The notes under the pieces: generated by a model
What the model was told of the DNA's origin: nothing
What the model saw: the letters and a program-made list of their open reading frames with translations, nothing else
Database searches by the model: none
Position numbers and translations under genes: made by a program
Assembly (NCBI RefSeq): GCF_002849655.1
Contig: NZ_PDNW01000027.1
Location: 1-38,206, forward strand
Direction: 5' to 3'
DNA from: Pollutimonas subterranea
GTDB lineage: Bacteria; Pseudomonadota; Gammaproteobacteria; Burkholderiales; Burkholderiaceae_B
Length of the DNA: 38,206 nt
Shown here: positions 5,685-30,745 of the stretch, one piece after another
How positions within the stretch are numbered: the first letter of the stretch is position 1
Layout: the number at the start of each line of letters is the position of its first letter

Positions 5685-5689
5685 GAGCG

Positions 5690-10566: not shown

Positions 10567-10584
10567 CATGACAAAAATGTAATT
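10567..10584 (+). promoter_or_regulatory. Imperfect CopR-type box B upstream of copA
   Basis: The 18-base element reads catgaca-aaaa-tgtaatt; the right half-site GTAAT is intact and the left has one mismatch (ATGAC for ATTAC). It lies 129 bases before the copA start. Unlike the other boxes, no -10 hexamer sits 33 bases away (the nearest, CATAGA at 10621, is at 37), so this assignment is weaker. Confidence 0.4.
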
Positions 10585-13105: not shown

Positions 13106-13165
13106 CGGTCATTACAGCTTTGTAATGACCGCGACATCTCTATGACAGGCCATGGTGAGTATAGT
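13106..13165 (+). promoter_or_regulatory. CopR-type box C with -10, driving the Met-rich protein gene
   Basis: The palindrome has perfect 11-base arms cggtcattaca and tgtaatgaccg around gctt (13106-13131). TATAGT at 13160-13165 starts 33 bases past the 18-base core, exactly as at box A, with the same hexamer. Boxes A and C are also both followed by GCGACAT on the plus strand. Transcription would start near 13172, which argues for ATG 13215, not the upstream frame start at 13152. Confidence 0.75.
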
Positions 13166-13697: not shown

Positions 13698-13745
13698 CCT
13701 AGTCTTCTTAAGGACCATGAACTGACAACCAATGGGTAAACCGAC

Positions 13746-16010: not shown

Positions 16011-16237
16011 AGTCGGCGAAGACCTATGTACCGAACGTGTGTATGTCAAAAGGCAAAACAACCGCATCCTCTAAAACTGTACCAATCGTTCTAACGGTGC
16101 GCGTAATGCAGCGCCGTTCTAACGCCTGGAACCGACGAGTGCTCAGTTGCGACGAAAGCGATACCCTTGCTTATAGCGTGCGCGCTCGGGCGCAATGATG
16201 CAGCTCACTTCGCGCTCTACCCATTACTGCGCGGTGC
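16011..16237. other. Convergent intergenic stretch, no gene seen
   Basis: These 227 bases lie between the convergent DUF3141 and DUF411 genes. I see no start codon with a ribosome binding site, no strong hairpin with a T-run and no recognisable peptide. Confidence 0.5.
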
Positions 16238-16654
16238 CTAATCTCGAGAAAACGCCTTACCCGTGAAGTCCACAGTAATCAGATTGCCGTCAAGCTGGCC
16301 CATGCCAGGCGCGTTTAAAGGCATGCCAGGCGCCGACACCCCCTTTACTGACGCGTCGGTGATCAATTTTTTGACGGCGTTAGCCGGCACATGCCCCTCG
16401 ATAACTTGGCCGGTGGCCTTGATCACACCCGTGTGACATGAACCAAGCTGCGACGGCACCCCGAGTTTTTGTTTCACCGAAGCCATGTCGGTAGTCTTAA
16501 TCGCCGTAACGTCAAAGCCTGACTTGCGCATGTGCTCGACCCAGCCTGTGCAGCAGCCACAATTGGGATCCTGGTATACGGTGATGGCCGTACCGGCAGC
16601 ATGTGCAAAGGATGATGCGGTAGCTAAGGCAGCCGCTGCTAACCATAATTTCAT
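16238..16654 (-). CDS. DUF411 (CopG-like) periplasmic metal-binding protein
   Basis: From ATG 16654 the protein has 138 residues: a signal peptide (MKLWLAAAALATASSFAHAA) and a DUF411 domain opening ITVYQDPNCGCCTGWVEHM (Cys32, Cys34, Cys35). Further landmarks are GSCHTGVIKATGQVIEGHVPA and the C-terminal GVSAPGMPLNAPGMG. DUF411 proteins occur in copper and silver resistance clusters, and the CxCC plus later Cys/His/Met residues are the presumed metal ligands. The upstream in-frame start at 16810 would put 52 unlikely residues before a clean signal peptide. TTGGAG lies ten bases before the chosen ATG. Confidence 0.87.
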   Translation of the reverse strand: MKLWLAAAALATASSFAHAAGTAITVYQDPNCGCCTGWVEHMRKSGFDVTAIKTTDMASVKQKLGVPSQLGSCHTGVIKATGQVIEGHVPANAVKKLITDASVKGVSAPGMPLNAPGMGQLDGNLITVDFTGKAFSRD

Positions 16655-16724
16655 AAAAACTTGCTCCAAGGAAAACGTAAGACCTAGACGTCTAACAATA
16701 CAAATAAAGGTGCACTCAATTGCA

Positions 16725-16940
16725 TCAGTTCTCTCGTTGCAAAGTAACTTCCTTTTGCGCCGCGAGAACTTTTGGCGGCCAGCTGCTTTTGATATAAGCG
16801 AGTACCGCATTGATCTCTTGGTCGCTAAGGACGTCGCAGTACGCCGGCATGTCGCTCACATAGCCCGGAGGCGCCGTCCGCCCTGGTACCAGACCGTTCT
16901 TGACCATATCCACCAGCATTACATCGGGATGGTGCCAAGG
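16725..16940 (-). pseudogene. C-terminal fragment of a c-type cytochrome
   Basis: The minus-strand frame ending at 16725 encodes MLVDMVKNGLVPG, then PPGYVSDMPAYCDVLSDQEINAVLAYIKSSWPP. This is the distal half of a small class I cytochrome c: the Met of SDMPAY would be the haem axial ligand and VLAYIKSxWPP the last helix. The N-terminal CXXCH haem site is missing. At about 16935-16940 the sequence passes into a cupredoxin gene in another frame, so a deletion has removed the haem-binding half. Confidence 0.75.
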
Positions 16941-17154
16941 TGATCATATTCGGTTCCGCATGCTGCATCCCTGGTATTTTTTGCATTTCTGCAGCAAGGG
17001 CCTTCAAATTGGCAATCGATCCGATCACCATTTCGTGAGGGATTTTCCCCTTATCCTTGATAAAGAAGCGCACGGTCTCGCCGGCACTAACGTGGATTTC
17101 GCTCGGCGTAAATCGCATTGTGTCGTCCATCGTGAGTTCTATTGTGCGTGTCAC
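16935..17154 (-). pseudogene. Truncated cupredoxin-domain protein
   Basis: From GTG 17154 the frame encodes a cupredoxin N-terminal part: MRFTPSEIHVSAGETVRFFIKDKGKIPHEMVIGS, then MQKIPGMQHAEPNMITLAP. This matches plastocyanin-like copper proteins (HEMV supplies the first Cu-ligand His), but the second half with the Cys-His-Met copper site is missing. After ITLAP the frame runs into the cytochrome fragment out of frame (SRCNAGGYG...). The frame is open upstream of the GTG without a signal peptide start, so the 5' end may also be lost. Confidence 0.75.
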
Positions 17155-17415
17155 TTTAGCGGGGCCGCCAGGTGTACCAGTTGGCAGCGGCGCGCTAGAA
17201 AGGGGGTCAGTATTACATCGGCGCTAACATTTAGGTAGACAGCCGTTCCACACTGCCATTAAAAAAGGGAAAAAGCATAACAGAACCGAAAACTCAAACC
17301 GGCCATAAAACGGCTTTCTGCTTGAATTCACTCTCTACCTGTTCGTAATCTGCGATTCTTCCAATTTTAGCGGGCCACTGGATTCCTATGCAGGCAACAA
17401 CTGACGTACGGCTTT

Positions 17416-18519
17416 CTAGAGCCAGACTAGCGCCGATTCGGCCAGTTCGCGTTCCTCGTCAACGGCTACGTTCCATATGCCCGGCCCTGTACGAGCGTCG
17501 ATGCGGGTCGCCCCGGCATTGTTCAGGTCAGTATCCAGGGCGAGACCCAACCACTCTAGACGCGCGACAATCCGTGCCCGCACAAGCGCCGCGCGATGGC
17601 CTATGCCGCCGGAGAACACGAGATGGTTGACTCCGTTAATCCCAGTCGCCATGGCGGCAATCGACTGCGCGATGCGTACTGTGAACAACTCCACAGCAAG
17701 CTGTGCTGACGGTTCGGAGTCGGCAAGTAGCACGCGCATGTCCCCGTGTCCTGCAATCCCCGCCAAGCCTCCAGCGTGGAACAGCCGCAACTCTGTTGCG
17801 TTTACATCCCCTCCATTCTGGCGGAGCATATACAGTAAGACGCCGGGATCGAGATCTCCCGAGCGCGTTGGACCTGGCACACCGCCCAAAGGCGTGAGGG
17901 ACATCGTGGTGTCACGACTTACGCCGTCCTCTACGGCACAGACGCTGCACCCGCCACCCAGGTGTGCGAATACAGCCGGACCGCGCAGAACAGTAGCGTC
18001 TTGCGCGGCCACTTCCCGTAAGGCGGAAGCGAAGGCAAGACCGTGGAAGCCGTAGCGGCGCACACCGAGCGCGTCCCAATCTCTGGGAATCGGCAGACGT
18101 CGGCTCCACGGGGCAAGTGAAGCGTGGAAGCTTGTATCAAACGCCACGCCATGCCGAGACTGCGGCCAGCGCTGGCCCGCGGCACGAGCAACGGTAAGCG
18201 CTGCGGGCTGGTGCAACGGCGCCAGTGGCGCCAACGCCTCGAGCTCGGCCAAGATAGCTCCGTCCAGTTCATGGCCGCCACATAGGTTACCTCCATGTAC
18301 GATTCGGTGCACCACCACGTCTGGGCGTTGAGCTGGCTCGGGCAACGCATCGAGGAGCAATGTTAGAAGTTCCTGTGGCTCGGCACCAGCTTGGATTTCA
18401 GCACGGGAGCACTCAAGTAGTCGTGGCTGTGCGTTTAAGTCAGAGTATTCAAGCGCATACGTCGCGCCTTTCACCGTGGTCGAGCCCACATTCAAAGCGA
18501 GTAAATTAAGGCCAGTCAC
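17416..18519 (-). CDS. ackA: Acetate kinase
   Basis: From GTG 18519 the protein is 367 residues, slightly below the usual ~400. It carries the ASKHA-fold acetate kinase landmarks: LALNVGSTTVKG at the N-terminus, HRIVHGG, LAPLHQPAAL, VAFDTSFHASL, RRYGFHGLAF, AHLGGGCSVCAV and VFSGGIGHRAALVR. It converts acetyl phosphate plus ADP to acetate plus ATP. The GTG has GAGGG five bases upstream and sits where the family normally starts; the long in-frame extension to 18651 would overlap the upstream gene. It is the last gene of the operon, directly behind the phosphoketolase-like gene that would supply acetyl phosphate. Confidence 0.9.
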   Translation of the reverse strand: MTGLNLLALNVGSTTVKGATYALEYSDLNAQPRLLECSRAEIQAGAEPQELLTLLLDALPEPAQRPDVVVHRIVHGGNLCGGHELDGAILAELEALAPLAPLHQPAALTVARAAGQRWPQSRHGVAFDTSFHASLAPWSRRLPIPRDWDALGVRRYGFHGLAFASALREVAAQDATVLRGPAVFAHLGGGCSVCAVEDGVSRDTTMSLTPLGGVPGPTRSGDLDPGVLLYMLRQNGGDVNATELRLFHAGGLAGIAGHGDMRVLLADSEPSAQLAVELFTVRIAQSIAAMATGINGVNHLVFSGGIGHRAALVRARIVARLEWLGLALDTDLNNAGATRIDARTGPGIWNVAVDEERELAESALVWL

Positions 18520-18583
18520 AGAACCCTCGATTGATCGGTCAGTGTGAGTGCTATGGGCACACAGGCCCCGCGAAAGCACGCGC

Positions 18584-21049
18584 TCAAAGCGCTGACACTG
18601 GTATGGGTGGCAGGAGTGTTGCAGGCTCGCCCGTGCCACTAACGGCCGCAAGCTCGTCTTCAGTCAGTACACTCCCTCGTTCCATGCCCAACACACGCGC
18701 GACCGCCTCCACGACGTGCGCCCAGGTGCTTCGGTTCGCAAAGAGGAGCCCCGGCACGTCCAGCGTTCCGCCACGGTTGATAAAGCCCAGCGCCACAGTG
18801 GTGGCTGGGCCAGTGTCCAGCCGCCGTAAGGCTCCCAAGAACGGCTCCGGACGAGTATGGGTCAGGAACACTCGCGGCCTTTTTGTTGGAAAGAGGGTTC
18901 GCACCTGAGTCTCGGCGTGCGTGTATCGCGCCTCGTCAGAATCCCTGGGCGCGCGGAACCGGGCCGGCTCGGCTAAATAGACGACAGCTGCTGTCAAACC
19001 CCGTTCGGTCAAGCGGGCGTGCGCGCGGAGCACTTCCTGCAGCTGATAAGCGCCTGTGGCGACCAGCAAGATGGCCGCCGTCGCAGGATCGCCCGTTAGG
19101 CATACGGCACCGATCGCCGCAAGCTCTTGCGCTTGGTCCGGTGTCAGGATATGAGGTACTGGACGCTTGGGCACAACGAGTGCAGTGATAGTGCCACGCT
19201 GCATATAGGCGCGGGCCAAGGCAGCGGCAGCACCGTTGGCGTCTGGCGCGAATACCACCCGAGCAACATCAGCCGACTCACCCAGCATCGCCTCTACCAT
19301 GGTCGGGTCTTGATGCGATTGTTCGTTCTTGGCGTTCTCCCAGGTGTGAGATGTGAGCACTAGCGGGACACCCAGCCACCCGGGTGGGCGCCCGGCATGC
19401 GCTTGCTGTCGCGCAAAGATCAGCTCTTGGCGGACCGCGCCGAGCATCTTCGGCGCAAAGGCCTCGTAGGTAACTACCAAGTTCAAGCCGCCCTTGTTAC
19501 CGAGCGCCGCGCATACGACGGCCTCCTCATTGAGCGCGGTGATGACCGCGCCAGTCGATGATTCTGCGACGCTGGGCTCAGGAATCTGCACCCGATGCTT
19601 TAGCACATCCAGCGTGCGGTCAAGCTTATTGCTGCGCAACTCATCGGGATTGCCGACTCGCACGCGTAAATCGGGATTCGCTTGAGTGATCGCCACAAAC
19701 AGCTCGTCCAGAGCAGCCATCGGCGAACTCGTTCCCCCAACTGCGCGATCTGCTATCACCGGCACACGGGGCCGCTCCACCTGCCGATCCGCGAGCGCGT
19801 GATCCCGCTCACGTGACCGCTGATGGGTGTGGTGATTGTTTAGTGCCGAGATCGCTCGGTCCAATTCCGGTGCTGAAACGAACAGTGCAGCGGCGCCTTC
19901 GTTGAATAGCGCGCGCGCCCCGGCATCGTGCGCCGGATTGCCGGCCAGCGGCAGATTGTGCGCGGAGTTGGTCCCTGCCCCTGGAAATCCGTAGCCCTTG
20001 ATGGTTTCGGCGATGCCATAGGGTAGGCGCACCTCACCTCGGGACAAATCACCCTGAGCTTGCAGCCGTGCTTCCATGATATGGATGCCCCACGCGATAC
20101 TGGCCGGATCGCGGCCATCAAGGGCAACCGGATCAAAGCCATTCAAGCGTAGGTAATGGTTGAGCCAGCGCTCGCCGCCTTGTTGAACGATCTGAGTGCG
20201 TTGTTCTATGCGCCGTCCATTGAGGATCATGATTGGACTGACTAAGCCGCTGTCCTCAGCGCGCCACCAGCGCGGCGCCCAGTCACTTCCCCGTTGCTCT
20301 TCAAAGGCCCCATCGCTAAGAAACGCGACCAGACGCTCGCCTTTGAGTGGTGCATGCACGTATTGCAGCTCGGCGAAACCGAGATAGCCACCTTCCATCA
20401 CACCCCCCGCAGTGTGCGCATTGACATGCGAACCGAGCGGCGAGGCGGGCGTCCCATCGGGGTTAAGCGTGTAGGCGTAGAAGTCGCTGACGAAGCGACT
20501 CAAGCCCGCGTCGGAACGGTCGTAGCGTGCCGCATGGGCTTCAGTCATGTTGCCGACCAGCACGTTGAGTGCATCGATCGCGGCAACGCAGTGCCCTTGT
20601 CCCATCATCCAGGCGCGGGTCACCCCGTCCAGCGCGTCCATCAGGAGGTACCCCGTGTACGCGGGCACCATGTTGAGTGAGCCGCCGGTATGACCTTCTG
20701 GCGTGGGTTTGAATTCGGCCGCGTCGAGCGTCGCGCCGTCGGTACGCACGCAGCGACCGTACGTCATGTGCGCGACCAGCCACATGCCGGCGCTCGTAAG
20801 ACGGTCGGCCGCGGCGAGCTGCCGCCAGGCAGTGGCTGCATCCGGCGTGCGGCTACGGGCGACAAGCTCGTCCACCATCTGGCGCACCCGTATCTGAGTA
20901 AGCGGATCGTGGCGAATTACGCCATAGCCGGCAGCCCAGTGCGCAAACTCGGGGTCGGCCCGTCTATGAGCAGCTGCCAGTTCTACGATGCGCTGGCGTT
21001 CGGAGGCTGCCAGTTGATCGGAGGTACAACAGGTGAGATGCTGGTTCAT
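18584..21049 (-). CDS. Phosphoketolase-like (XFP family) thiamine-diphosphate enzyme
   Basis: The 821-residue protein has the phosphoketolase three-domain order. The N-terminal region has EGHTGGSLNMVPAYTGYL and MGQGHCVAAIDALN, the middle has VTYEAFAPKML, TSHTWENAKNEQSHQDP, and the C-terminus has LGFINRGGTLDVPGLLFANRSTWAHV. Phosphoketolases split xylulose-5-P or fructose-6-P into acetyl phosphate and an aldose phosphate. Canonical motifs differ: PGHGGP reads PEGHTGGS, and the GDGEAETGP region reads SDGAFEEQRGSDWAP. It is therefore a divergent subfamily, sometimes annotated as a xylulose-5-P epimerase, and its substrate is open. ATGA overlap with the PRPP-synthetase homologue; TGGGAGG ribosome binding site. 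Confidence 0.82.
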   Translation of the reverse strand: MNQHLTCCTSDQLAASERQRIVELAAAHRRADPEFAHWAAGYGVIRHDPLTQIRVRQMVDELVARSRTPDAATAWRQLAAADRLTSAGMWLVAHMTYGRCVRTDGATLDAAEFKPTPEGHTGGSLNMVPAYTGYLLMDALDGVTRAWMMGQGHCVAAIDALNVLVGNMTEAHAARYDRSDAGLSRFVSDFYAYTLNPDGTPASPLGSHVNAHTAGGVMEGGYLGFAELQYVHAPLKGERLVAFLSDGAFEEQRGSDWAPRWWRAEDSGLVSPIMILNGRRIEQRTQIVQQGGERWLNHYLRLNGFDPVALDGRDPASIAWGIHIMEARLQAQGDLSRGEVRLPYGIAETIKGYGFPGAGTNSAHNLPLAGNPAHDAGARALFNEGAAALFVSAPELDRAISALNNHHTHQRSRERDHALADRQVERPRVPVIADRAVGGTSSPMAALDELFVAITQANPDLRVRVGNPDELRSNKLDRTLDVLKHRVQIPEPSVAESSTGAVITALNEEAVVCAALGNKGGLNLVVTYEAFAPKMLGAVRQELIFARQQAHAGRPPGWLGVPLVLTSHTWENAKNEQSHQDPTMVEAMLGESADVARVVFAPDANGAAAALARAYMQRGTITALVVPKRPVPHILTPDQAQELAAIGAVCLTGDPATAAILLVATGAYQLQEVLRAHARLTERGLTAAVVYLAEPARFRAPRDSDEARYTHAETQVRTLFPTKRPRVFLTHTRPEPFLGALRRLDTGPATTVALGFINRGGTLDVPGLLFANRSTWAHVVEAVARVLGMERGSVLTEDELAAVSGTGEPATLLPPIPVSAL

Positions 21050-21960
21050 GTATCCTCCCAGGGAACCGATGAAGAAGTCATTAGCGCCGAGGCGGCCGCC
21101 GCAAGGTCGGATCCAACCGAGATCGCGTTGGATGGATGGGCGATAGTGTCGGTGCTGGCAATGTGTTTAAGTCCGGCGTCCTGCAGACGTTCATAGGCGT
21201 TGCCGGCAAAGACGGGATGGATAGTGACTAGCACCGCTTCGCGTAACGCAAGGCGCTGTAAGTGCGTCACCGTCTCCAGAATCGTGTGACCCGATGAGAC
21301 GATATCGTCAACCAGTACGGGGATGCGCCCTGCTACTGCTGAAGGATCCGGCAGGCTGACGCGAACGTCGTAATCACCATGCCGCTCCTTGTTTAGCACT
21401 TGATAGGGCAACTGCGCCTCTTGGGCAATGCGTGATACCCATTGCTCACTTTCACTATCAGGACCAATCAGTATAGCCTCGGGGATCGCCTGAGCGATCC
21501 AGCGCGACACGGCTGGCGTCGCCGAAACGTGAGCGACGGGAATACGATACAACGACTGCAGTTGCCGGATCCGGTGCAGGTGAGGATCCACGGTCACCAA
21601 CCAATCAAAGGCCTCTTCCAGAAATCGAGCAAAGAGCGGCACACTGACCGCTTCGCCGCCGTGAAAGCGGGTGTCCTGGCGCATATAGGCCAGGTACGGC
21701 GCAATCAATCCGACCGAGCGTGCGCCAAACTCACGGGCAGTGTGGGCCGCAAACAGCAACGGCAAAGCCAGTGGATCTGGGTTGCGCAGCGTGGCCAAAA
21801 TCGCCACATCCGCCCCTTCAAGGTCATCGTCTAACGTGACGAGCGACTCACCGTCGGGAAAGTGCCGCCAAGCTATTGGCGCCACGCGCGCTTGGAGATG
21901 TGTAGCGATGGTAGCAGCCAAGGTAGCGTCAGCGGGAAAAGGCATCAAAACTCGGGTCAT
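21046..21960 (-). CDS. Ribose-phosphate pyrophosphokinase (PRPP synthetase) homologue
   Basis: The 304-residue protein has the PRS fold landmarks: LIAPYLAYMRQDTRFHGGEAVS (ATP-loop region), VDPHLHRI, a catalytic-loop KERHGDYDV, and the PRPP-binding LVDDIVSSGHTI. PRS makes PRPP from ribose-5-P and ATP; the reverse is possible. LVDDIVSSGHT differs from the standard DDxxxTGGT, and GPDSESEQW replaces the usual PDxGGxxRA, so it belongs to a divergent clade. It is unlikely to be the housekeeping prs, given its place between a nucleotide phosphorylase and a phosphoketolase. It overlaps both neighbours by four bases (ATGA). Confidence 0.85.
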   Translation of the reverse strand: MTRVLMPFPADATLAATIATHLQARVAPIAWRHFPDGESLVTLDDDLEGADVAILATLRNPDPLALPLLFAAHTAREFGARSVGLIAPYLAYMRQDTRFHGGEAVSVPLFARFLEEAFDWLVTVDPHLHRIRQLQSLYRIPVAHVSATPAVSRWIAQAIPEAILIGPDSESEQWVSRIAQEAQLPYQVLNKERHGDYDVRVSLPDPSAVAGRIPVLVDDIVSSGHTILETVTHLQRLALREAVLVTIHPVFAGNAYERLQDAGLKHIASTDTIAHPSNAISVGSDLAAAASALMTSSSVPWEDT

Positions 21961-23477
21961 GCGCCCTCCGTAGAAATTGAGAATGGCTGATTGATCCTAG
22001 CGTACTCCAGAGCATAGGCAAGCTCACCGCGCGATTGCGCGTGCACGGTAAAAAGGGGCTGGCCGTGCTGCACCGTATTGCCGACCCGCAACGCCGTTTC
22101 CAAACCGGCGGCGGGCGAAGTCGGCGCCCCGGCCAGCTTCGCAATACGTGCAAGGCGTCGATTGTCGATCGCTGTAATGCGCCCCTCCAAGGGGGCGGCG
22201 ACATCGGCGGTTAATGCCGCCTGTGGAGGCTCTCGAAATCCACCTTGAGCCTCGCAGATGGCAAGGAACTTTGCCAGCGCTTGCCGGGAGTGCAATACCG
22301 CGCGCGCACGTTGGATCCCGGTGCCTGAGGCGCTTCCAGGGGCCAACTCGAGTAAGGCACCCGCCAAGGCAATCGCTCGCTCTTTGAGGTCGGCCGGCGC
22401 GTCGGCGTCATTGTTTAGGACTTTGAGAACATCCCGTGCCTCAAGAGCTGGCCCGATTCCCACACCCACCGGCTGTGTACCATCGGAGCGATAGATGCCC
22501 AACTGCAGGCCGACCGCCTCAGCCGTGTGGCGCAGGCGTGCAGCTAGGCTGTCCGCTGAACTGTCGCTGCGGACCTTGGCGGTGGGCCCGACCGGCATGT
22601 CGATCAGCACATGCGTGGATCCGGCGGCGACCTTCTTGGACAGCACACTGGCGACCAATTGCCCGTCACTGTCGAAATCCAGCGGCCGTTGAATACGAAT
22701 GAGAACATCGTCCGCAGGACTTAGGCGAACGTTCCCGCCCCAGACGATGCAACCTCCCTCGCGCTCGACCACGCGGCGCATCGCCGGTATGTCCAGCGAG
22801 ACCGGCGCCATGACTTCCATCGTATCGGCCGTACCCGCCGGGGAGGTGATCGCCCGAGAGGACGTTTTAGGGATGAGATAGCCCAGCGCTGCAATAATAG
22901 CCACCACAATCGGTGTCGTGCGATTGCCGGGCAGCCCACCGACGCAGTGCTTGTCCAACACAGTGCCCTCCCCCCAGTCTAATCGCTGCCCGACGGAGAT
23001 CATTGCGCGGGTTAGCCCGGTGGTTTCTCCATGGTCGAGGCGTTCACCGGCACTAGCTGAGACGAAGGCCGCCAACTCTAGATCAGAGAGACGACTTTCT
23101 ACCACATCCTCTACCAGCGTGAGGTATTGTGCATCGTCCAGACGCGCCCCGAAGACCTTGGCACGCAACGCTCCAGCCGAAGCGGCAGGCGCAGGGTGTC
23201 GAACGGTTGCCCGCGCGTCGACGTCCGGCTCTAGGATGTTCCAAGCAGCCTCAGACAATGCCACTTCATCAAGGGCAATCTGCTCGTTCACCACCACATT
23301 TAATGTTGCGGTCAAGAACCGGTCGCCCACCTGTATCCGAACTCGGGTCATGGCAACAAAGCCTTCAGAGCGGCACACTTCGCAATCGCGGTGCATATAC
23401 GCGATCGGCTGTTGATAGGTATCAATACCGGCACGGGTAACTCGCAAGGATGTATGGCTTGACGCAGATACAGTCAT
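21957..23477 (-). CDS. AMP phosphorylase-type nucleotide/thymidine phosphorylase
   Basis: The protein has 506 residues, about 70 longer than DeoA thymidine phosphorylase. The N-terminal domain (about 1-90) is that of archaeal AMP phosphorylases. The core motif KHCVGGLPGNRTTPIVV and the stretch SSRAITSPAGTADTMEVMAPV match the AMP-phosphorylase clade, where DeoA has KHSTGG and GGTLDKLE. Expected reaction: NMP plus phosphate to base plus ribose-1,5-bisphosphate; thymidine phosphorolysis is the alternative. It overlaps the nuclease and PRPP-synthetase genes by four bases each. No RuBisCO or ribose-1,5-bisphosphate isomerase lies in the window, so the fate of the product is unclear. Confidence 0.83.
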   Translation of the reverse strand: MTVSASSHTSLRVTRAGIDTYQQPIAYMHRDCEVCRSEGFVAMTRVRIQVGDRFLTATLNVVVNEQIALDEVALSEAAWNILEPDVDARATVRHPAPAASAGALRAKVFGARLDDAQYLTLVEDVVESRLSDLELAAFVSASAGERLDHGETTGLTRAMISVGQRLDWGEGTVLDKHCVGGLPGNRTTPIVVAIIAALGYLIPKTSSRAITSPAGTADTMEVMAPVSLDIPAMRRVVEREGGCIVWGGNVRLSPADDVLIRIQRPLDFDSDGQLVASVLSKKVAAGSTHVLIDMPVGPTAKVRSDSSADSLAARLRHTAEAVGLQLGIYRSDGTQPVGVGIGPALEARDVLKVLNNDADAPADLKERAIALAGALLELAPGSASGTGIQRARAVLHSRQALAKFLAICEAQGGFREPPQAALTADVAAPLEGRITAIDNRRLARIAKLAGAPTSPAAGLETALRVGNTVQHGQPLFTVHAQSRGELAYALEYARINQPFSISTEGA

Positions 23478-24859
23478 CGCGCTGCCTCCAGCTCCACGCG
23501 TTCCAGGTGTTCCGGCACACGCGCTTGCCAGCCTAGTTCTCGCTGAATGCTGATCCGCAGCGTGTCGGCAGCATCCGGTTCGCCATGGGTGACGTACACC
23601 ATGTGCGGTGCCGAAGGCGCAGTCCGCATCCAGTCCAGCAGTTCGGTGGCGTCGGCATGGCCAGAAAATCCCTGCAGCTGCACCACTTCGGCGCGAATAG
23701 GAACGTCGCGACCGAACATACGCAGTGTGCGGACGCCCGCGGCAAGTGCGGCGCCTCGCGTGCCGCCTGCCTGATAACCCGACAGCAGGATCGCGTTTCG
23801 GTAATCAGATCCGAAGGCCTCGATATGGTGCAGCACGCGACCACCGGTGGCCATGCCGCTGGCCGAGATAATAATCATCGGCACACGGCGTCGGTCAAGC
23901 GCTTTCGATTCGTCGACGCTGTTGACGAAAGTCGCCAGCTCGTACATGCGCTGGCAGTCCTCGTTGGATACGTGGTGTTCGTCATGATGCGCGTGGTAGT
24001 GTCGGGTCGCATTCACTGCCATTGGGCTGTCAAGGTAGACCGGCAACGATGGGATCTCGCCCCGCTGCTGCAGCCGCGCCAAGTGCAGCATCAGCGCCTG
24101 CGCGCGACCTACAGCAAACGCAGGTATGACAATCACCCCGCCGCGAGCAGCCACTCGACGCACGATAGGCCCAAGCTCCGCTTCCTGGTCCACGTTTACA
24201 TGTGATCGATTGCCATAAGTGGATTCGCAGACCAACACGTCACAGCCGGGAAGCGATGAGGGGGGATTCATGAGCGATTCGTGTTGCCGCCCCAGGTCCC
24301 CGCTGAAGTGCAGACGCTGGCCTTGCACATCCAGGCTGATATGGGCGGCGCCCAGAATGTGGCCGGCTGGGTGGAATCGGGCCTGGATGCCGGGTGCGAC
24401 CTCGATATCGAGCTCGTAGGCGTGTCCCTGCAACTGGCGCAAGCTCTGCCTAGCGTCACGCTCGGTATAGAGCGCGACGGGCTCCTTGTGCTTGGAAAAG
24501 CCTTTGCGTGCCGCGTATTGCGCCTCCTCTTCGAGCAAGTGCCCGCTGTCCGGGAGCAAGAGACCGCACAGGGCTACAGTCGCATTGGTGCAGTGGATAC
24601 GGCCACGAAAACCTCGTTTGACCAGTGCAGGCACGTATCCCGAATGGTCCAAGTGAGCATGGGTAAGTACTACGGCGTCGATTGATGTGGGGTCGACGGG
24701 AAACGGTGTCCAGTTGCGATCACGCAACTGCTTGTAGCCTTGGAACAGACCGCAGTCCACGAGCACGCGGCGCCCGTTGGCTTCCACAAGATACCGGGAA
24801 CCAGTCACAGTGCCCGCAGCGCCTAAAAACTGGAGAGTAGGTCCAATATTGTTATTCAT
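23474..24859 (-). CDS. Beta-CASP metallo-beta-lactamase ribonuclease-like protein
   Basis: From ATG 24859 the protein has 461 residues. The MBL motifs are LTHAHLDHSG (His67, His69, Asp71, His72), HPAGHILGAAH and FSGDLGR. The beta-CASP region and RMMBL end follow: GMATGGRVLHHIE, VQLQGFSGHADATELLDWM, YVTHGEP. Proteins of this type (YSH1/CPSF73-like, bacterial RNase homologues) are two-zinc endo- or 5'-exoribonucleases. The start overlaps the ATPase stop by eight bases (ATGAATAA), and its stop overlaps the phosphorylase. In this operon an RNase would supply nucleoside monophosphates, an inference from order only. Confidence 0.85.
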   Translation of the reverse strand: MNNNIGPTLQFLGAAGTVTGSRYLVEANGRRVLVDCGLFQGYKQLRDRNWTPFPVDPTSIDAVVLTHAHLDHSGYVPALVKRGFRGRIHCTNATVALCGLLLPDSGHLLEEEAQYAARKGFSKHKEPVALYTERDARQSLRQLQGHAYELDIEVAPGIQARFHPAGHILGAAHISLDVQGQRLHFSGDLGRQHESLMNPPSSLPGCDVLVCESTYGNRSHVNVDQEAELGPIVRRVAARGGVIVIPAFAVGRAQALMLHLARLQQRGEIPSLPVYLDSPMAVNATRHYHAHHDEHHVSNEDCQRMYELATFVNSVDESKALDRRRVPMIIISASGMATGGRVLHHIEAFGSDYRNAILLSGYQAGGTRGAALAAGVRTLRMFGRDVPIRAEVVQLQGFSGHADATELLDWMRTAPSAPHMVYVTHGEPDAADTLRISIQRELGWQARVPEHLERVELEAAR

Positions 24860-27209
24860 GAGTGCTCCGATCAGGGGCGAGCGGCGAGCCCGCAGCGTTG
24901 AGAGGCGAGGAAGAGGATGTTGCGGCGGCACTACGCGGAGCCAGCCGGACCCGCCGTAGCAGCAGCGCGTTGAGAGCCACGATGACTGAACTACCCGACA
25001 TCGAAAGAGCAGCAACCTCGGGTGACAGCGTAAAGGGGTACAGCACGCCGGCTGCCAACGGAAAGGCGAACACGTTGTAGCCGACCGCCCAGGCCAGGTT
25101 CTGGTGCATCTTACGCAGCGTCGCTCGGGCTACGGTAATCGCTCGGACAACGTCGTGCGGATCGCTGCGCATCAGGACGATGTCCGCGCTGTCGATAGCC
25201 ACGTCCGTACCGGCGCCGATTGCAAAGCCGACGTCGGCCTGCGTAAGTGCCGGGGCGTCGTTGATGCCGTCGCCGACCATGCCGACCTTGAGACCCTGCG
25301 CTTGCAGCTTTTTGACTTCGTCGGCCTTGCCCCCAGGCAACACATCAGCCAGCACGATATCGATCCCGAGATCTCGAGCCACGCGCTCGGCGGTCGGCCG
25401 GTTGTCGCCAGTGATCATGGCGACCTTTATGCTGCGCCGGTGCAGCTCATCGATTGCCGCGCGCGAGGTCTCACGGATCGCGTCAGCAATTGCAATAAGG
25501 CCTACGAGCTGACCACCGACAGCGGTAAAGATTACCGTGCGACCTGCGCCGGTTAGACGCTGCGCGTCGACTTCCAAGACGCGAAGGTCGATACCATGTT
25601 CCACCATGAGCAGGCGGTTGCCAAGCAACACCTGCACCTCGTCGACCATGCCCATGGCGCCTTGCCCATCGATGTTGGTGAAGGCCACAGCACGTTCTGA
25701 TATCGGACCGGCACGCTTGAGGATGGCCTGTGCCAGGGGATGCTCGGAGTGCGCTTCCACAGCAGCGGCGACCGCAAGCAGCCGTTCCTGCGTCCAATCC
25801 GCCGCGATGGCCATCTCGACGACTTCCGGCGCGCCCACGGTCAAAGTGCCGGTCTTGTCGAAAATCACGACGTCCAGCCGGGCGCTCTTTTCGATGGATT
25901 CCGCATGCTTAAAAAGGATGCCGTGGCGGGCACCTAACCCCGTCCCAATCATAATCGCCATGGGTGTCGCCAATCCAAGAGCGTCCGGACAAGCAATTAC
26001 AAAAACCGTAATCGTGAGCGTGAGAGCAAAGAGCAACGGCTGGCCCAACCACCAGAACCACACGGCGAACGTCCCCAAGCCGATCACGATGGCTGCAAGC
26101 ACGAGCCATTGCGAGGCGCGGTCGGCGAGCAACTGGGCGGGCGCCTTGGAATTCTGTGCGTCCTGCACAAGTTTGATGATCTGTGCGAGCGCGGTGTCAC
26201 TGCCGATTTTGGTGGCGCTGTAGGTAAACGCGCCACTCTTGTTGATCGACCCAGCGACCACGAGTGCGCCTGGATCCTTGCGCACAGGCATGGATTCTCC
26301 GGTCAGCATCGACTCATCGACCTGGGAGCTGCCTTCCGTCACAACCCCGTCAACAGGGACTTTTGCACCCGGGCGCACGACCACTAGGTCACCGATCAAC
26401 ACCTCCGCGGTCGCCATCTCAATCTCTTGACCGCTGCGTCGCACGACGGCGCGCGGCGGTGAGAGCTTCAGCAGGGCCTTCATCGCATCCGAAGCACCGG
26501 CGCGGGCCCGCATCTCGAGCCAGTGACCTAGCAGGACAAAAGTGAGCAGGACGGCGGACGCCTCGAAAAAGTTGGGACCGTCGAAGAGAAACGTTGAAGC
26601 TATACTAAACCCGTAGCCGGTGCCGACGCTCAGTAGCACCAGCACCGCCATATCGAGAACGCCGCGCCGCAGCGAGCGAACCGCGGCGGCGAAGAATGGC
26701 CACCCGGGATACAGCACCGCGCCGGTCGCCAGCAGGAATAGCCAGACATTCTCTCGCAGACCGAAAGGAACGGGCGGCGGTTCCGTCATGCCCATCGGCG
26801 ACCATAGGAATACCGGGATCGCAAAGGCGAGCGCGACCAGAAAGCGGCGGCGCATATCGCGGGCTGCGGCATGCAAATCGTTTCCATGGTGCATGCCGGC
26901 GTGCGCGTCATGGGCCTCCGCATGCGCGCTGTGCGGCTGCTTACGCCCAACTTCTGGCGTCGGCTCGGCATCTTGCCCCACCGCCTCACAATCGAATCCG
27001 CATTTCCTGATCGCGGCGGCGACCGCCCCGGTCGAGAGACTAGTAGGATCGAAGGACACTTGCAGGCTCGCATTGGCGTAGTTGGCGGATACTGCGGTGA
27101 CGCCTGGTACGGCCGCGATTACTTTCTCTAGGGTGCGCGCGCATCCGGCGCTCACCATGCCGCCAATAGGCCAAGTGCGCGTCCTCGCAGCTGTTTTATG
27201 GACAGGCAT
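24852..27209 (-). CDS. P1B-type metal ATPase with CPD metal-site motif and degenerate HMA domain
   Basis: The protein has 785 residues from ATG 27209. An N-terminal HMA-fold domain has the metal loop GGMVSAGC, where the first Cys of CXXC is Ser20 and only Cys23 remains. A His-rich linker follows (HSAHAEAHDAHAGMHHGNDLH). The ATPase core is complete: MLTGESMPV, phosphorylation Asp451 (DKTGTLTVG), [19 protein letters not shown]. The transmembrane metal motif is CPD (407-409), not CPC as in CopA at 10713. Substrate is therefore uncertain; Cu export is the default family guess. The start is joined to the methyltransferase-like gene as TGATG. Confidence 0.88.
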   Translation of the reverse strand: MPVHKTAARTRTWPIGGMVSAGCARTLEKVIAAVPGVTAVSANYANASLQVSFDPTSLSTGAVAAAIRKCGFDCEAVGQDAEPTPEVGRKQPHSAHAEAHDAHAGMHHGNDLHAAARDMRRRFLVALAFAIPVFLWSPMGMTEPPPVPFGLRENVWLFLLATGAVLYPGWPFFAAAVRSLRRGVLDMAVLVLLSVGTGYGFSIASTFLFDGPNFFEASAVLLTFVLLGHWLEMRARAGASDAMKALLKLSPPRAVVRRSGQEIEMATAEVLIGDLVVVRPGAKVPVDGVVTEGSSQVDESMLTGESMPVRKDPGALVVAGSINKSGAFTYSATKIGSDTALAQIIKLVQDAQNSKAPAQLLADRASQWLVLAAIVIGLGTFAVWFWWLGQPLLFALTLTITVFVIACPDALGLATPMAIMIGTGLGARHGILFKHAESIEKSARLDVVIFDKTGTLTVGAPEVVEMAIAADWTQERLLAVAAAVEAHSEHPLAQAILKRAGPISERAVAFTNIDGQGAMGMVDEVQVLLGNRLLMVEHGIDLRVLEVDAQRLTGAGRTVIFTAVGGQLVGLIAIADAIRETSRAAIDELHRRSIKVAMITGDNRPTAERVARDLGIDIVLADVLPGGKADEVKKLQAQGLKVGMVGDGINDAPALTQADVGFAIGAGTDVAIDSADIVLMRSDPHDVVRAITVARATLRKMHQNLAWAVGYNVFAFPLAAGVLYPFTLSPEVAALSMSGSSVIVALNALLLRRVRLAPRSAAATSSSSPLNAAGSPLAPDRSTHE

Positions 27210-27871
27210 CAAAGTTCCCCTTCGTGTGAATCATGAGCTCGCCGGCGTCGAGGCAGGAATGCGGGCACCTCGCGCATGTAGCGGGCGTAATCGTCGCCAA
27301 AACGAGCCAAACTGTCGCGCTCCTCACGCCGAGCCAACCGCGCATAGGCCCACAGCAGCACGGGGTAGAAGATAATCGTGATCAACGTCGGCCACTGTAG
27401 TAAGAATCCAGTCAGCACTAGGGCAAATGCCACGTATTGCGGATGGCGGATGCGTGCGTAGATGCCCTCCCGCGCGACCCGACCCTCGCGCTGTGCCTGG
27501 TACAAGATCGGCCAGGCAGACGCCAGCAGCCAGAACCCACCGCCCATCAGCACGAAACTCGCCAAATGAAACGGCCCAAAATGCGGGTTGGCGCGCCATC
27601 CGAACCACATTTCAAGCAAGTGCCCTGCGTCATGGCTGAGCCAGTCTACTTGTGGATAGGTCGCGCTCAGCCAGCCGGACAGCAGGTAAAGCGTGAGCGG
27701 AAACCCGTACATCTCAGCAAACAACGCCACGACAAACGCCGAGAACATCCCAAACCCCCGCCAATCCCATCGGGTCAACGGCTTATAAAAGCTCCAAGCG
27801 AAGAAGATAAAGAATGCTGCGTTAATGGCGGCAAGGAGCCATAGGCCATATTCGCCTTGAGATTCATGCAT
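27209..27871 (-). CDS. Isoprenylcysteine carboxyl methyltransferase-like membrane protein
   Basis: From ATG 27871 the protein has 220 residues and about five transmembrane segments. The C-terminal half carries the ICMT/PEMT signature GIYARIRHPQYVAFALVLTGFLLQWPT, followed by ARREERDSLARFGDDYARYMREVPAFLP. CzcN-type proteins of this family occur in metal-resistance clusters with unknown substrate. AGGAAGG precedes the ATG. It starts one base after the DUF2933 stop and runs into the ATPase gene. A decayed copy lies on the other strand at 28759. Confidence 0.85.
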   Translation of the reverse strand: MHESQGEYGLWLLAAINAAFFIFFAWSFYKPLTRWDWRGFGMFSAFVVALFAEMYGFPLTLYLLSGWLSATYPQVDWLSHDAGHLLEMWFGWRANPHFGPFHLASFVLMGGGFWLLASAWPILYQAQREGRVAREGIYARIRHPQYVAFALVLTGFLLQWPTLITIIFYPVLLWAYARLARREERDSLARFGDDYARYMREVPAFLPRRRRAHDSHEGEL

Positions 27872-27872
27872 G

Positions 27873-28175
27873 TCAGTGCCTTCCTGAAGATGTATCGGAG
27901 CTGTCCTTCGATGAAGCGCTATCGCGCATACTGGCATGTCCGCCATCGGGCGGGCGATCCGCTTTGTTCTCGTCATCATCACGACCGTGGTCACCATGAC
28001 CGCCGTGCATGAACTTATGCATTAAGGGACACAGCAGTAGAAGGCCCAACGGCAACCAGCGCAGCGATCCCGCGAGATGAGCACGGTGCTCCGCAATTAG
28101 GTAAAACGCTGCCAGCGCTAGGAAGACCCAGAGAGTCCAGCGCCGGCGCTTAGGCGAGGTGTGGTTGATAGACAT
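27873..28175 (-). CDS. DUF2933 small membrane protein
   Basis: The 100-residue protein has one or two hydrophobic segments (WTLWVFLALAAFYLIAEH and WLPLGLLLLCPLMH), the DUF2933 layout. The metal-ligand-like tail HKFMHGGHGDHGRDD is rich in His and Asp. DUF2933 proteins are typical of copper and silver clusters; their job is unknown. The gene lies directly before the methyltransferase-like gene. A second, plus-strand DUF2933 gene is at 29671. Confidence 0.82.
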   Translation of the reverse strand: MSINHTSPKRRRWTLWVFLALAAFYLIAEHRAHLAGSLRWLPLGLLLLCPLMHKFMHGGHGDHGRDDDENKADRPPDGGHASMRDSASSKDSSDTSSGRH

Positions 28176-28485
28176 GGAAGTGCCCTCTGCGAATGGCGCC
28201 GGGATGGCGAGCAGTTTTGGAAGGAGTCGATATCGACGTAAGGCTTACATTTGTAGCAATTTCATTGCGTTTAGCCCGGATGCGCCTCGGGTCTTCATCG
28301 CCTAGACTGGCGGTTCGTGCGCGCACACTGGGTTCGCACGGTCGAAACCGGCTTGAGCCATGTGGGTCATACTTCCCCGCTCCCTCGTGCGATCCGAAGT
28401 AACGGCGGCTCAAGTACGTACCGCTTTTCTTAATCTTTCTCGAGATGCCCGACGTTGAAACGACCCACTCGGTTAGTCGTTTCAT
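28150..28485 (-). CDS. Small basic protein of unknown function, first gene of the operon
   Basis: From ATG 28485 the frame encodes 111 residues starting MKRLTEWVVSTSGISRKIKK, with no membrane segment or signal peptide. It is strongly basic in the middle (RRIRAKRNE) and I recognise no family. Evidence that it is translated: a perfect AGGAG eight bases before the ATG, and a CopR-type promoter about 75 bases upstream of the likely leader end. Its last 26 bases overlap the start of the DUF2933 gene. It could also be a leader peptide or a decayed gene whose 5' end alone is preserved. Confidence 0.5.
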   Translation of the reverse strand: MKRLTEWVVSTSGISRKIKKSGTYLSRRYFGSHEGAGKYDPHGSSRFRPCEPSVRARTASLGDEDPRRIRAKRNEIATNVSLTSISTPSKTARHPGAIRRGHFHVYQPHLA

Positions 28486-28567
28486 GCGCACATCTCCTAA
28501 TTAGTTCGAAGTTGAAATCCGGCAAGCCCGGCGCGGTATGGACTGAATTGCACTGAACAACGGTTTC

Positions 28568-28623
28568 AATATATCTAAGCGCCCCTTTCAATCCGATGAC
28601 TCCACAATTACATTTTTGTAATC
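28568..28623 (-). promoter_or_regulatory. CopR-type box D with -10, driving the 28485-17416 operon
   Basis: The 18-base core aattaca-tttt-tgtaatc (28606-28623) has perfect ATTACA/TGTAAT half-sites. On the minus strand TATATT (28573-28568) begins 33 bases past the core, the same distance as at boxes A and C. The next gene in that direction is the small basic protein at 28485, followed by the long minus-strand operon. The plus-strand direction leads only into a pseudogene. Confidence 0.65.
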
Positions 28624-28758
28624 ACAGCAAACAGAACCACTCGTTTGGGGTGGACTTCCACGAACAGCTCAAGCATCAAAGCGCTTATTCACGGCTTGGT
28701 GAAGCCCGTTTGTCCTCGTTTTAACCGTGCTGAATCGGCCTACGGGCTATAGTCACTG

Positions 28759-29106
28759 GTGATTCTCTACTCTGCGACCTCCGCTTTCGGTTTTTTCAAA
28801 CCGACCACCGGGCGAGACTGGCGAACATTCAAGGCGTCTACGGCATTCGTTGTAGCTTTGTTCGTGGAAATGTATGGCTTCCCACTGACGCTTTACCTGT
28901 TCTCAGGATGGCTTCAGAAGCGCTTCCCAACCGACGAGCCACTGTCGCACGACGGTTGGCCACTCGTGGTCGACGCTGTTCGAGTCGAAAGTAGATCTGC
29001 ACTTCGGTGAGTTGCACACGACTAGCTAGTTTTTCCTGGAATATGGTTTCTATCTGCTGTCCGGCTTGGAGCGCGCCGAAATCGATCGCTATCCGGAACC
29101 GGGATA
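28759..29106 (+). pseudogene. Decayed copy of the isoprenylcysteine methyltransferase-like gene
   Basis: The plus-strand frame from 28759 reads [13 protein letters not shown], then [27 protein letters not shown], close to [24 protein letters not shown] of the gene at 27209. After about 28975 the frame shifts: [16 protein letters not shown], a TAG stop, then FFLEYGFYLLSGLERAE follow in another frame before the homology ends near 29106. It lacks the conserved C-terminal catalytic half (RHPQY). It is inverted relative to the intact gene. Confidence 0.8.
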
Positions 29107-29125
29107 GAATCGGTAGCGATATTGC

Positions 29126-29156
29126 TTGACCTTGTCACGATGGGAAGGTTTATCTT
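29126..29156 (+). promoter_or_regulatory. CueR-type (MerR-family) copper promoter
   Basis: The -35 TTGACC (29126-29131) and -10 TATCTT (29151-29156) are separated by 19 bases, the long spacer characteristic of MerR-family promoters. Between them lies ccttgtcacgatgggaagg (29130-29148), one base from the well-known CueR operator ccttgccacgatgggaagg. It points to the HMA chaperone gene at 29260 with a leader of about 97 bases. No cueR gene is in the window. Confidence 0.8.
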
Positions 29157-29259
29157 GTTATTGGCAGAACGCAATGTGGGACTGCCGGGTAGAGGAAACC
29201 GAGGCGACCTACCGGCTCACCCTACCCTTCGGATCGAATTGACACCTAAGGAGTAACGT

Positions 29260-29571
29260 ATGGAACAAATCGAATTTAAGGTAGCAGGAATGACTTGCGG
29301 CGCCTGCGTCGCCCGAGTGACCCGGACACTTCTCAGCATACCGGGGGTGCGTAACGCCGAGGTGGACCTTGCGCGGGGCATGGCGCGCGCCCAAGTGGAC
29401 GACATCGCTGCGGTACAACCTGCCTTGCTACAGGCTCTCGCGGCGGCGGGCTACCCTTCTGAGCCGCTGACCGGCAGCGCAGTCAGTGTGGAAGGCACTC
29501 AAGGAGCCGCCCCTGGGGGCTCTAGCAGCGACCCTCGAGCAAACCGCGGGGGATGCTGCTGCGGGCACTGA
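29260..29571 (+). CDS. HMA-domain copper chaperone (CopZ-like) with Cys-rich tail
   Basis: The 103-residue protein is an HMA domain (about 1-70) with the canonical Cu(I) site GMTCGACVARV (Cys13, Cys16). A Gly/Ser/Pro-rich linker and a C-terminal RGGCCCGH follow, giving a second potential metal site. Such chaperones carry Cu(I) in the cytoplasm to P1B ATPases. The ATG has AAGGAG at a good distance and lies behind a CueR-type promoter. It fits as partner for CopA, and its intact CXXC contrasts with the degenerate HMA of the ATPase at 24852. Confidence 0.87.
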   Translation: MEQIEFKVAGMTCGACVARVTRTLLSIPGVRNAEVDLARGMARAQVDDIAAVQPALLQALAAAGYPSEPLTGSAVSVEGTQGAAPGGSSSDPRANRGGCCCGH

Positions 29572-29670
29572 GCCTGGCGAAGTAGCTGGTCGATATTTCG
29601 CCGAACACGCTGATGGCCTCCCGTATCCTAGAAAGACTAGACTCAGCCATCCCAATTGGAGATCCTACAC

Positions 29671-29940
29671 ATGAACCATCATCCGTCCGACCCCGAGCAC
29701 CTGCGGCCATCTACCTCGTTTTGGGCGCGTCCGGGGGCCAAGGCTTGGATTTCCCTCGTCCTAGTGACGGGTTTTTACCTACTGCGGGAGCATTGGGGGC
29801 ATATCGCCGGTTGGTGGCCTTATTTACTCCTTGCAGCCTGTCCGCTGATACATCTGATGCATGGGCACGGCGGACACCAACATGGCAATTCGAGCGAACC
29901 AGATTTGACGCAGCGTGACGAAACAACCGAAGGTAAATAA
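29671..29940 (+). CDS. DUF2933 small membrane protein, second copy
   Basis: From ATG 29671 (GGAG eight bases upstream) the protein has 89 residues with hydrophobic segments AWISLVLVTGFYLLREHW and WWPYLLLAACPLIH, followed by the His-rich tail MHGHGGHQHG. It has the same layout as the DUF2933 protein at 27873, so the two are paralogues read in opposite directions. It lies 99 bases behind the copper chaperone, probably on the CueR-controlled transcript. Confidence 0.82.
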   Translation: MNHHPSDPEHLRPSTSFWARPGAKAWISLVLVTGFYLLREHWGHIAGWWPYLLLAACPLIHLMHGHGGHQHGNSSEPDLTQRDETTEGK

Positions 29941-29980
29941 GATCGCTGCTGCTGGCAACGGTGACTATCCGCCCGAGGAG

Positions 29981-29999
29981 GCGGCGATAACGTCGCCGC
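29981..29999 (+). terminator. Hairpin between the DUF2933 gene and the kinase remnant
   Basis: The arms gcggcga and tcgccgc pair perfectly around a 5-base loop, 41 bases after the DUF2933 stop. There is no T-run, so it may be a weak or factor-dependent terminator shared by convergent transcripts. Confidence 0.4.
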
Positions 30000-30058
30000 T
30001 AAAGCGCCCAGTGCGTAGTTACCTTTCAGAACCGCCAGTCGATCTACTTACTTAATAG

Positions 30059-30478
30059 TTAACTGTTGTAAGTCGCGCGATCTCGATCCCGAGGAAGTTT
30101 GATCTCAAAAACTATTTGCCCATCCTCATTTTTTGCAGTAATGGTGCCGCCATGTGTGTCAATAATCGATTTGACAATGGCTAGGCCTAAACCGGCTCCG
30201 TCGCCCTTACGTTGGCGTGAAGGATCCGCGCGGTAAAATCGGTCAAACAATCTGGGAAGATGTTCGGAATTAATCACTAGTCCCGGGTTTTTCACACAAA
30301 TAATCACCATATCGTTGCTGTTCGCTGCTAGTGAAACTGTGACCGCTCGACCCGCAGGGGTATAGCGTATGGCATTGGATAAAAGATTACTCAGCGCGCG
30401 GCGCATCATCAATCTATCGCCTTGAATACGTACGACTGGACCTTCGCGCATCAATGAAACGGAGCGTTCTTCGGCCCA
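30059..30478 (-). pseudogene. Truncated sensor histidine kinase (ATPase domain only)
   Basis: The frame ending at 30059 encodes about 140 residues of a HATPase_c domain. The N-box is RRALSNLLSNAIRYTPAG, then FDRFYRADPSRQRKG (F-box), GAGLGLAIVKSIIDTHGG (G2-box). The sensor, HAMP and His-phosphoacceptor domains are missing. Upstream of WAEERSVSLM the sequence becomes an IS5-type transposase fragment in another frame. The subfamily resembles CusS/CopS-type heavy-metal sensor kinases, plausible in this setting, but the ligand domain is absent. A kinase of this length cannot sense or phosphorylate by itself. Confidence 0.85.
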
Positions 30479-30714: not shown

Positions 30715-30745
30715 TTAGGTCGCCATTGCGCGCTATTAAATCAAA

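Follow-up and report, generated by a model that had tools for sequence, protein, structure and literature searches.

The stretch of DNA analysed here, called the window, comprises positions 1 to 38,206 of contig NZ_PDNW01000027.1 of Pollutimonas subterranea (assembly GCF_002849655.1; genome of 4.54 Mb). Between positions 17416 and 28485 it carries nine minus-strand genes running head to tail. They include genes for an RNase, a nucleoside monophosphate (NMP) phosphorylase-type enzyme, a relative of phosphoribosyl pyrophosphate (PRPP) synthetase, a phosphoketolase-like enzyme and an acetate kinase. An earlier note, made from the sequence alone, had read this group as an operon that could turn RNA into ATP, joined to metal-defence genes. 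The order and coordinates of the nine genes hold, and are as follows:

28150..28485, minus strand: small first open reading frame (ORF), probably a small protein without a family; its ATG and the Shine-Dalgarno sequence AGGAG were read directly
27873..28175, minus strand: DUF2933 protein (PF11666, 73 bits)
27209..27871, minus strand: ICMT/PEMT-like methyltransferase (PF04140, 30 bits, cut-off 24)
24852..27209, minus strand: P1B-type ATPase in which CPD replaces CPC and the HMA domain has no CxxC (Pfam/NCBIfam and sequence reading)
23474..24859, minus strand: beta-CASP metallo-beta-lactamase (MBL) RNase (PF10996, PF07521; match to RNase TTHA0252)
21957..23477, minus strand: NMP phosphorylase-type enzyme (TP), annotated as thymidine phosphorylase family (NF003338, TIGR02645)
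21046..21960, minus strand: PRPP-synthetase-like protein (PRS-like; PRK07199) with altered loops, proposed ribose-1,5-bisphosphate (R15P) phosphotransferase (NF005537)
18584..21049, minus strand: divergent phosphoketolase-like thiamine pyrophosphate enzyme (PF03894, 136 bits; PF09364, 46 bits)
17416..18519, minus strand: acetate/propionate-type kinase with a putative GTG start (PF00871, 215 bits)

Five of the junctions are exactly as the note had described them: TGATG at 27209, an 8-base overlap at 24852-24859, and ATGA overlaps of 4 bases at 23474, 21957 and 21046. Comparison with relatives indicates that the acetate kinase probably starts at GTG 18519, 64 bases past the phosphoketolase stop, and not at the far TTG 18651. 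Internal promoters separating the metabolic genes, which the note had named as an argument against a single operon, were not suggested by the counts, as promoter-like sites were no more frequent than expected (2 against an expectation of 4.4, counting the two strands of 16200-29400). The small first ORF had no Pfam or NCBIfam match, and its frame is preserved in a Neopusillimonas locus (L041) via two compensating gaps. The tRNA and Rfam scans gave no matches. The assignment of the enzymes to families, also made in the note, was borne out by Pfam and NCBIfam profiles and by solved relatives.

TP scored 641 bits with NF003338 (cut-off 434) and 549.4 bits with TIGR02645, the archaeal-type family with an N-terminal domain (cut-off 434.6), covering profile positions 1-492 of 493. 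Models of nucleoside phosphorylases remained far under their cut-offs (T_phosphoryl 130.5 versus 570.7, Y_phosphoryl 169.9 versus 409), and the closest solved relatives were 4ga5/4ga4 (310 bits). Long frames of the fusion type occur in six of 151 sampled genomes of the family, and in all three that were scanned PhnN is naturally fused to the N-terminus of TP, as found by profile scan:

L109, 3821-5605, minus strand: PhnN-TP fusion frame
L110, 4452-6236, minus strand: PhnN-TP fusion frame
L111, 4397-6268, minus strand: PhnN-TP fusion frame

The fused PhnN domains scored 183.9, 169.9 and 164.1 (cut-off 156), and nadC adjoins the fusion in L109 and L110. Because the simple gene caller erred in GC-rich loci, only ORFs scanned against profiles were used for the fusions and for the neighbours of TP. 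According to the cited passages of PMC9700705, PhnN converts R15P to PRPP, and the fusion protein is likely, judging from its domains, a one-chain NMP-to-PRPP enzyme. Since TP is fused to an R15P kinase, the simplest reading is that it would act on 5'-nucleotides and that R15P is its likely product. This agrees with the base and ribose-1,5-bisphosphate that the earlier note had named as products.

The R15P isomerase family (TIGR00511) had no match in the source genome and no member over cut-off in an even sample of 184 genomes of the class, where 113 weaker matches were seen; an archaeal-style exit via R15P isomerase is thereby ruled out. PhnN was over cut-off in 4 of the 37 class genomes possessing both TP and PRS and did not reach it in the other 33. 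Among the TP neighbours scanned at four loci there was no evident R15P enzyme.

We propose that R15P may be consumed directly by the PRS-like protein. This protein matched NF005537 with 371 bits (cut-off 322), and its predicted structure (pLDDT 91) has the PRPP-synthetase fold. The nucleotide contacts of Escherichia coli PRPP synthetase given in the cited passages of PMC6332680 (F35, D37, E39, R96, Q97, D98 and H131) are matched by F34, D36, E38, R94, Q95, D96 and H127, which are invariant in 25 aligned rows of PRS-like proteins; three other residues named in that paper (Arg92, H13 and R99) were not matched up in the alignment. K191 and R193 are retained. In the loop that we take to be the pyrophosphate loop, the six canonical PRPP-synthetase chains shown have D-x-G-[G/A]; all 25 rows of PRS-like proteins read D-x-E-S, and the 12 further or overlapping members of TP-PRS pairs all read D-x-E-[S/A]. 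In the ribose-phosphate loop the G preceding the last T is replaced in all 25 rows and in the 12 pair members. No paper among the listed matches in the open-licence PMC literature linked PRPP-synthetase names with R15P, none pairing phosphoketolase with AMP phosphorylase was found there, and the joint chemistry of TP and PRS may be undescribed.

In the class sample TP was over cut-off in 39 of 184 genomes (41 at an expectation value, E, of 1e-60) and PRS in 37 (39 at E 1e-60), with both present in 37. At 38 of the 40 TP places over cut-off a PRS gene lay directly downstream, within 274 bp. The two exceptions were G146, in which TP ends 242 bases from the contig end, and G169, which carries PhnN; PRS without TP was seen in G084, at the contig start, and in G168. 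In this sample, therefore, TP is almost always accompanied by the PRS-like gene and the two form a near-obligate pair, which is a new finding of this work. A phosphoketolase-like gene was detected in six class genomes at E 1e-30, one of them by a partial match. Because 34 of the 37 genomes with both TP and PRS have no such gene, we regard the TP-PRS pair as the core unit and the phosphoketolase end as an attachment. In the family sample (phosphoketolase-like gene in 30 genomes, TP in 26, PRS in 13) the pairing was looser, the phosphoketolase-like gene and TP sharing 19 genomes, and TP and PRS 12.

The best solved relative of the beta-CASP MBL protein is RNase TTHA0252 (258 bits). The phosphoketolase-like family aligned with phosphoketolases of known structure along most of the protein (profile 141 bits), and did not reach the curated NCBIfam phosphoketolase cut-offs (best 132.7 bits versus 962). 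The catalytic His/Glu/Lys set is present: H120, H153, H208, H364, E508, H579 and K351 are invariant in 12 phosphoketolase-like rows, and correspond to what we take to be the catalytic set of the Bifidobacterium longum enzyme (H64, H97, H142, H320, E479, H553 and K300). Two positions that we assign to the phosphate site, H548 and R442 in phosphoketolase numbering, differ, the former being Lys574 and the latter variable. The acetate kinase aligned with solved propionate and acetate kinases (3khy, 178 bits). Five plasmid records name the phosphoketolase-like subfamily 'xylulose 5-phosphate 3-epimerase', a label that appears in no title or abstract among the papers listed from the open-licence PMC literature. 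As a function it is ruled out by the alignment to phosphoketolases, and the label is probably a naming error.

The genome scan gave at least 586 phosphoketolase-like relatives, of which the best 80 were kept and 79 genome-contig loci examined (one locus shorter than 4 kb was left out), so that the sample leans to close relatives. Neighbourhoods were counted in the 57 loci where the phosphoketolase-like gene is flanked on each side by 6.5 kb or more, as presence in the locus and not as exact operon order. TP was present in 49 of these loci, PRS in 48, MBL in 42 and AckA in 41; all four accompanied the phosphoketolase-like gene within about 10 kb in 28 loci, and none of the four in 3. Other neighbours were a P1B ATPase (39), DUF2933 (33), ICMT (27) and DUF3141 (13), the ICMT/PEMT-like gene being found alongside DUF2933 in many loci. 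The subfamily also occurs on plasmids. Six of the 15 closest plasmid matches (47-61% identity) were opened, and four of these, from Acidovorax, Sulfitobacter, Novosphingobium and Agrobacterium, have MBL, TP and PRS nearby. The Phenylobacterium and Alteromonas loci lack the three genes in the stretch shown, that of Alteromonas having an adjoining acetate kinase. Three of the six loci were typed as conjugative and have TP, PRS, MBL and the phosphoketolase-like gene, in varying order, near copper, stress or haemoglobin genes. These results show that the co-occurrence of RNase, TP, PRS-like protein, phosphoketolase-like enzyme and acetate kinase exceeds chance. The neighbourhood check suggested in the note thus found the five enzymes together elsewhere, and the lack of conserved gene order that it had named as a refutation was not seen, as judged by presence in the locus.

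Published data connect relatives of these genes with low oxygen. In the cited passages of PMC9104804, bll3117-bll3116-bll3115 of Bradyrhizobium diazoefficiens are a predicted operon for TP, PRS and MBL; at 0.5% O2 bll3117 and bll3115 were down when fixK2 was mutated, FixK2 boxes being listed for them, and the same was true of bll2518-bll2517 (phosphoketolase and acetate kinase). The cited part of PMC6515984 reports bll3115, bll3116, bll3117 and bll2518 as up at 0.5% O2, in protein and in transcript, and a phosphoketolase is predicted within a FixK regulon in the cited part of PMC2908626. For FNR-type sites, 185 regions upstream of module-leading genes (P1B ATPases included) from 58 dereplicated loci of 85 were compared with 349 control regions. 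Of 1024 palindromic words, TTGAT occurred most often before the module-leading genes (5 of 185 regions), and TTGAC was one of five tied next at 3. In the window itself perfect TTGAT-N4-ATCAA palindromes lie at 23412-23425 and 31726-31739, both within ORFs. The one at 23412 was ruled out as a promoter element, since it lies inside the TP gene on the conserved IDTYQ codons.

Upstream of the operon a different site was found. The AgrR box of Cupriavidus metallidurans is, in the cited passages of PMC7380067, a 16-bp ATTACA-N4-TGTAAT sequence with the consensus ATKACANNNNTGTMAT, and three perfect matches to this consensus occur in the window, compared with none in 100 shuffles:

28607..28622, no strand assigned: predicted AgrR/CopR-type operator ATTACA-N4-TGTAAT upstream of the operon, fitting ATKACANNNNTGTMAT
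13111..13126, no strand assigned: second AgrR-type box, before orf181 and DUF3141 (13152-16010, plus strand), consensus match
10568..10583, no strand assigned: third box, a fit to the consensus in its degenerate form, preceding a P1B ATPase of the CPC type that has a YHS domain (10713-13052, plus strand)

The operator block is perfect in the Neopusillimonas locus and has one mismatch in a near-identical Pollutimonas locus (L027); most other module loci have no AgrR-type box before the module. As read from the predicted operator, the operon in the Pollutimonas-like lineage probably answers to an AgrR/CopR-type silver/copper response regulator. A short ORF for a histidine-kinase ATPase domain lies at 30059-30535, and DUF3141, which follows an AgrR-type box in the window, is the same family that occurs in 13 of the 57 module loci.

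The ATPase of the operon has CPD in place of CPC, and its HMA domain reads GMVSAGC, with no CxxC. We take CPC and the CxxC of the HMA domain to be the motifs of P1B-1 copper exporters (CopA), and canonical copper export by this ATPase was rejected on account of the CPD. CPD is kept in 14 related ATPases from other loci, among them the near-identical L027, and the CPD-type P1B ATPases form a subgroup tied to this module. In many Lysobacterales loci a second ATPase, with CPH, follows the phosphoketolase-like gene. The metal coupling suggested in the note is upheld in so far as a predicted metal-type operator precedes the operon and P1B ATPases recur, frequently if not constantly (39 of 57 loci), but the in-operon ATPase lacks the canonical copper motifs and the Bradyrhizobium genes respond to low oxygen. 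On the same contig, cytochrome c maturation genes (Ccm-type families, redoxins, DsbD-type) occupy 467-8355 on the minus strand.

Taken together, we consider it on balance probable that the operon is a respiration-independent ATP route fed by nucleotides, in which the PRS-like protein carries out the R15P step and control is by low oxygen or metal. The beta-CASP RNase would cut RNA to 5'-NMPs, and TP would phosphorolyse these to base and R15P, a step strongly suggested by the evidence on TP. The PRS-like protein, in our proposal, would use R15P as a donor and pass its C1 phosphate on to an adenine nucleotide (R15P + AMP -> ribose 5-phosphate (R5P) + ADP), in a shortened version of the reverse PRPP-synthetase reaction. 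Housekeeping isomerase and epimerase are assumed to convert R5P to xylulose 5-phosphate, which the phosphoketolase-like enzyme, to judge by its family, would cleave to acetyl phosphate and glyceraldehyde-3-phosphate; acetate kinase, likewise by family, would form acetate and ATP from acetyl phosphate. No redox step would be required up to this ATP. TP and PRS would be the core, to which RNase, phosphoketolase and kinase were added in many lineages, and control by low oxygen (published for Bradyrhizobium) or of the silver/copper type (predicted here) would suit cells that have to make ATP while metal or a shortage of oxygen halts respiration. The route from RNA via NMP, R15P and ribose phosphates to acetyl phosphate and ATP, as drawn in the note, is supported by gene association and by enzyme families, but its 'other ribose phosphates' hid a missing step, for which no R15P isomerase over cut-off was available. 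Likewise an emergency energy route on metal poisoning fits the anatomy of the operon and the metal-type operator, but in the one organism with data in the cited passages, which do not cover metal, the genes respond to low oxygen. A stronger formulation, which we regard as possible but doubtful, is that PRK07199, at present classed as a ribose-phosphate diphosphokinase, has a new activity, that of a ribose-1,5-bisphosphate:AMP (or ADP) phosphotransferase. Together with NMP phosphorylase it would make up a module of two genes, widespread in bacteria (2 AMP + Pi -> adenine + R5P + ADP), which would convert NMPs to R5P, conserve the phosphate in ADP and fill the role of the archaeal R15P isomerase. 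Combined with phosphoketolase and acetate kinase, the module would yield ATP anaerobically on the way from RNA to acetate, with oxygen or metal as the controlling signal, depending on the lineage.

Several observations weigh against the nucleotide-fed route. TP did not reach the cut-off of the AMP_phos equivalog TIGR03327 (440.3 versus 535). The 34 class genomes with the pair and no phosphoketolase-like gene make the phosphoketolase end optional, and in the family sample 11 of the 30 genomes with a phosphoketolase-like gene lack TP. At E 1e-60, 14 of the 26 TP genomes of the family have no PRS: six have the long fusion-type frames and eight have neither. The neighbourhood of TP, inspected in three of these eight, contained no PRS and no evident substitute, PhnN elsewhere in these genomes not having been looked for. 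The source genome carries PhnN, and the combination of PhnN and a standard PRPP synthetase would have the same net effect. It is possible, in view of the modelled fold, which the PRPP-synthetase-associated proteins of animals PAP39/PAP41 also match, that the PRS-like protein has no catalytic function. As to control, no response regulator for the AgrR-type box was found, no search aimed at regulators having been made, and TTGAT-N4-ATCAA with 0 or 1 mismatch did not occur upstream of the operon in 27300-31000. FNR-type sites with degenerate ends were in modest excess (13 sites in 9 loci for the 185 module regions versus 12 in 7 loci for the 349 controls), and the cited rows of PMC6515984 place the same Bradyrhizobium genes outside the direct FixK2 regulon as defined by previous work and report them as unchanged in bacteroids.

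The same pair of genes could serve base salvage, the PRS-like protein making R15P (or PRPP) from R5P and ATP and TP working in reverse to remake NMPs without pyrophosphate. The occurrence of the pair without a phosphoketolase-like gene would suit such a role, as would the two loci where the PhnN-TP fusion lies next to nadC, the gene of a PRPP user. Cellular phosphate, however, favours phosphorolysis, and the operon, like many other loci, combines the pair with genes for RNase, phosphoketolase and acetate kinase; in the Bradyrhizobium passages cited above the TP-PRS genes rise with phosphoketolase at low oxygen. We consider salvage unlikely. Comparably improbable is the absence of any single pathway, with the genes forming a mobile island of low-oxygen and metal functions held together by co-transfer and a common promoter, and the proteins working independently. 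The three conjugative plasmid loci, with their differing gene order and their copper, stress or haemoglobin neighbours, and the variable membership of the loci in general are what such an island would look like, but it accounts poorly for the overlapping MBL, TP, PRS and phosphoketolase genes here and for the near-obligate TP-PRS pairing in 37 class genomes, of which 34 have no phosphoketolase-like gene. That TP is a true thymidine/pyrimidine nucleoside phosphorylase, and that the PRS-like protein is either a standard PRPP synthetase or an inactive partner of one, appears very unlikely. Public annotation, the AMP_phos score under cut-off, the PRPP-synthetase fold and the matches to PAP39/PAP41 speak for it, and are opposed by the low T_phosphoryl and Y_phosphoryl scores, the fusion of TP to the R15P kinase PhnN and the loop changes of the PRS-like protein.

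The nucleotide-fed route resembles several known systems in part. With the archaeal pentose bisphosphate pathway or NMP shunt (NMP phosphorylase, R15P isomerase and Rubisco), as described in the cited passages of PMC9700705, it would share the NMP phosphorylase-type step to R15P and the entry of nucleotide ribose into central carbon metabolism; here, in contrast, no R15P isomerase is over cut-off, a PRS-like partner takes its place and the exit is via phosphoketolase and acetate kinase. The haloarchaeal non-carboxylating pathway of the same passages also has R15P as an intermediate and no Rubisco, but begins with guanosine and a ribose 1-phosphate kinase and ends in dihydroxyacetone phosphate and ethylene glycol. 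The Bradyrhizobium genes bll3117-bll3115 and bll2518-bll2517, as far as the cited passages go, represent the same five annotated families and respond to microoxia and FixK2, but lie in two separate operons with FixK2 boxes instead of an AgrR-type box; those passages put forward no pathway for them, and bll2518 was compared by annotation only. The known XFP-acetate kinase branch likewise has phosphoketolase domains and acetate kinase in sequence, from which the present subfamily is remote (the 132.7 bits given above against a cut-off of 962). The 16-bp box is shared with C. metallidurans in the passages available, but here precedes a fermentation-type operon.

If the nucleotide-fed route is correct, bacteria without the archaeal pentose bisphosphate pathway would own a parallel one, with an unassigned activity concealed by a housekeeping annotation in roughly one in five of the class genomes sampled (the 37 of 184 with both genes). 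It would explain the presence of a 'thymidine phosphorylase', a second 'PRPP synthetase' and an RNase in low-oxygen gene sets. RNA would be usable as an ATP reserve, and in Pollutimonas a metal-type operator would stand before a fermentation-type operon.

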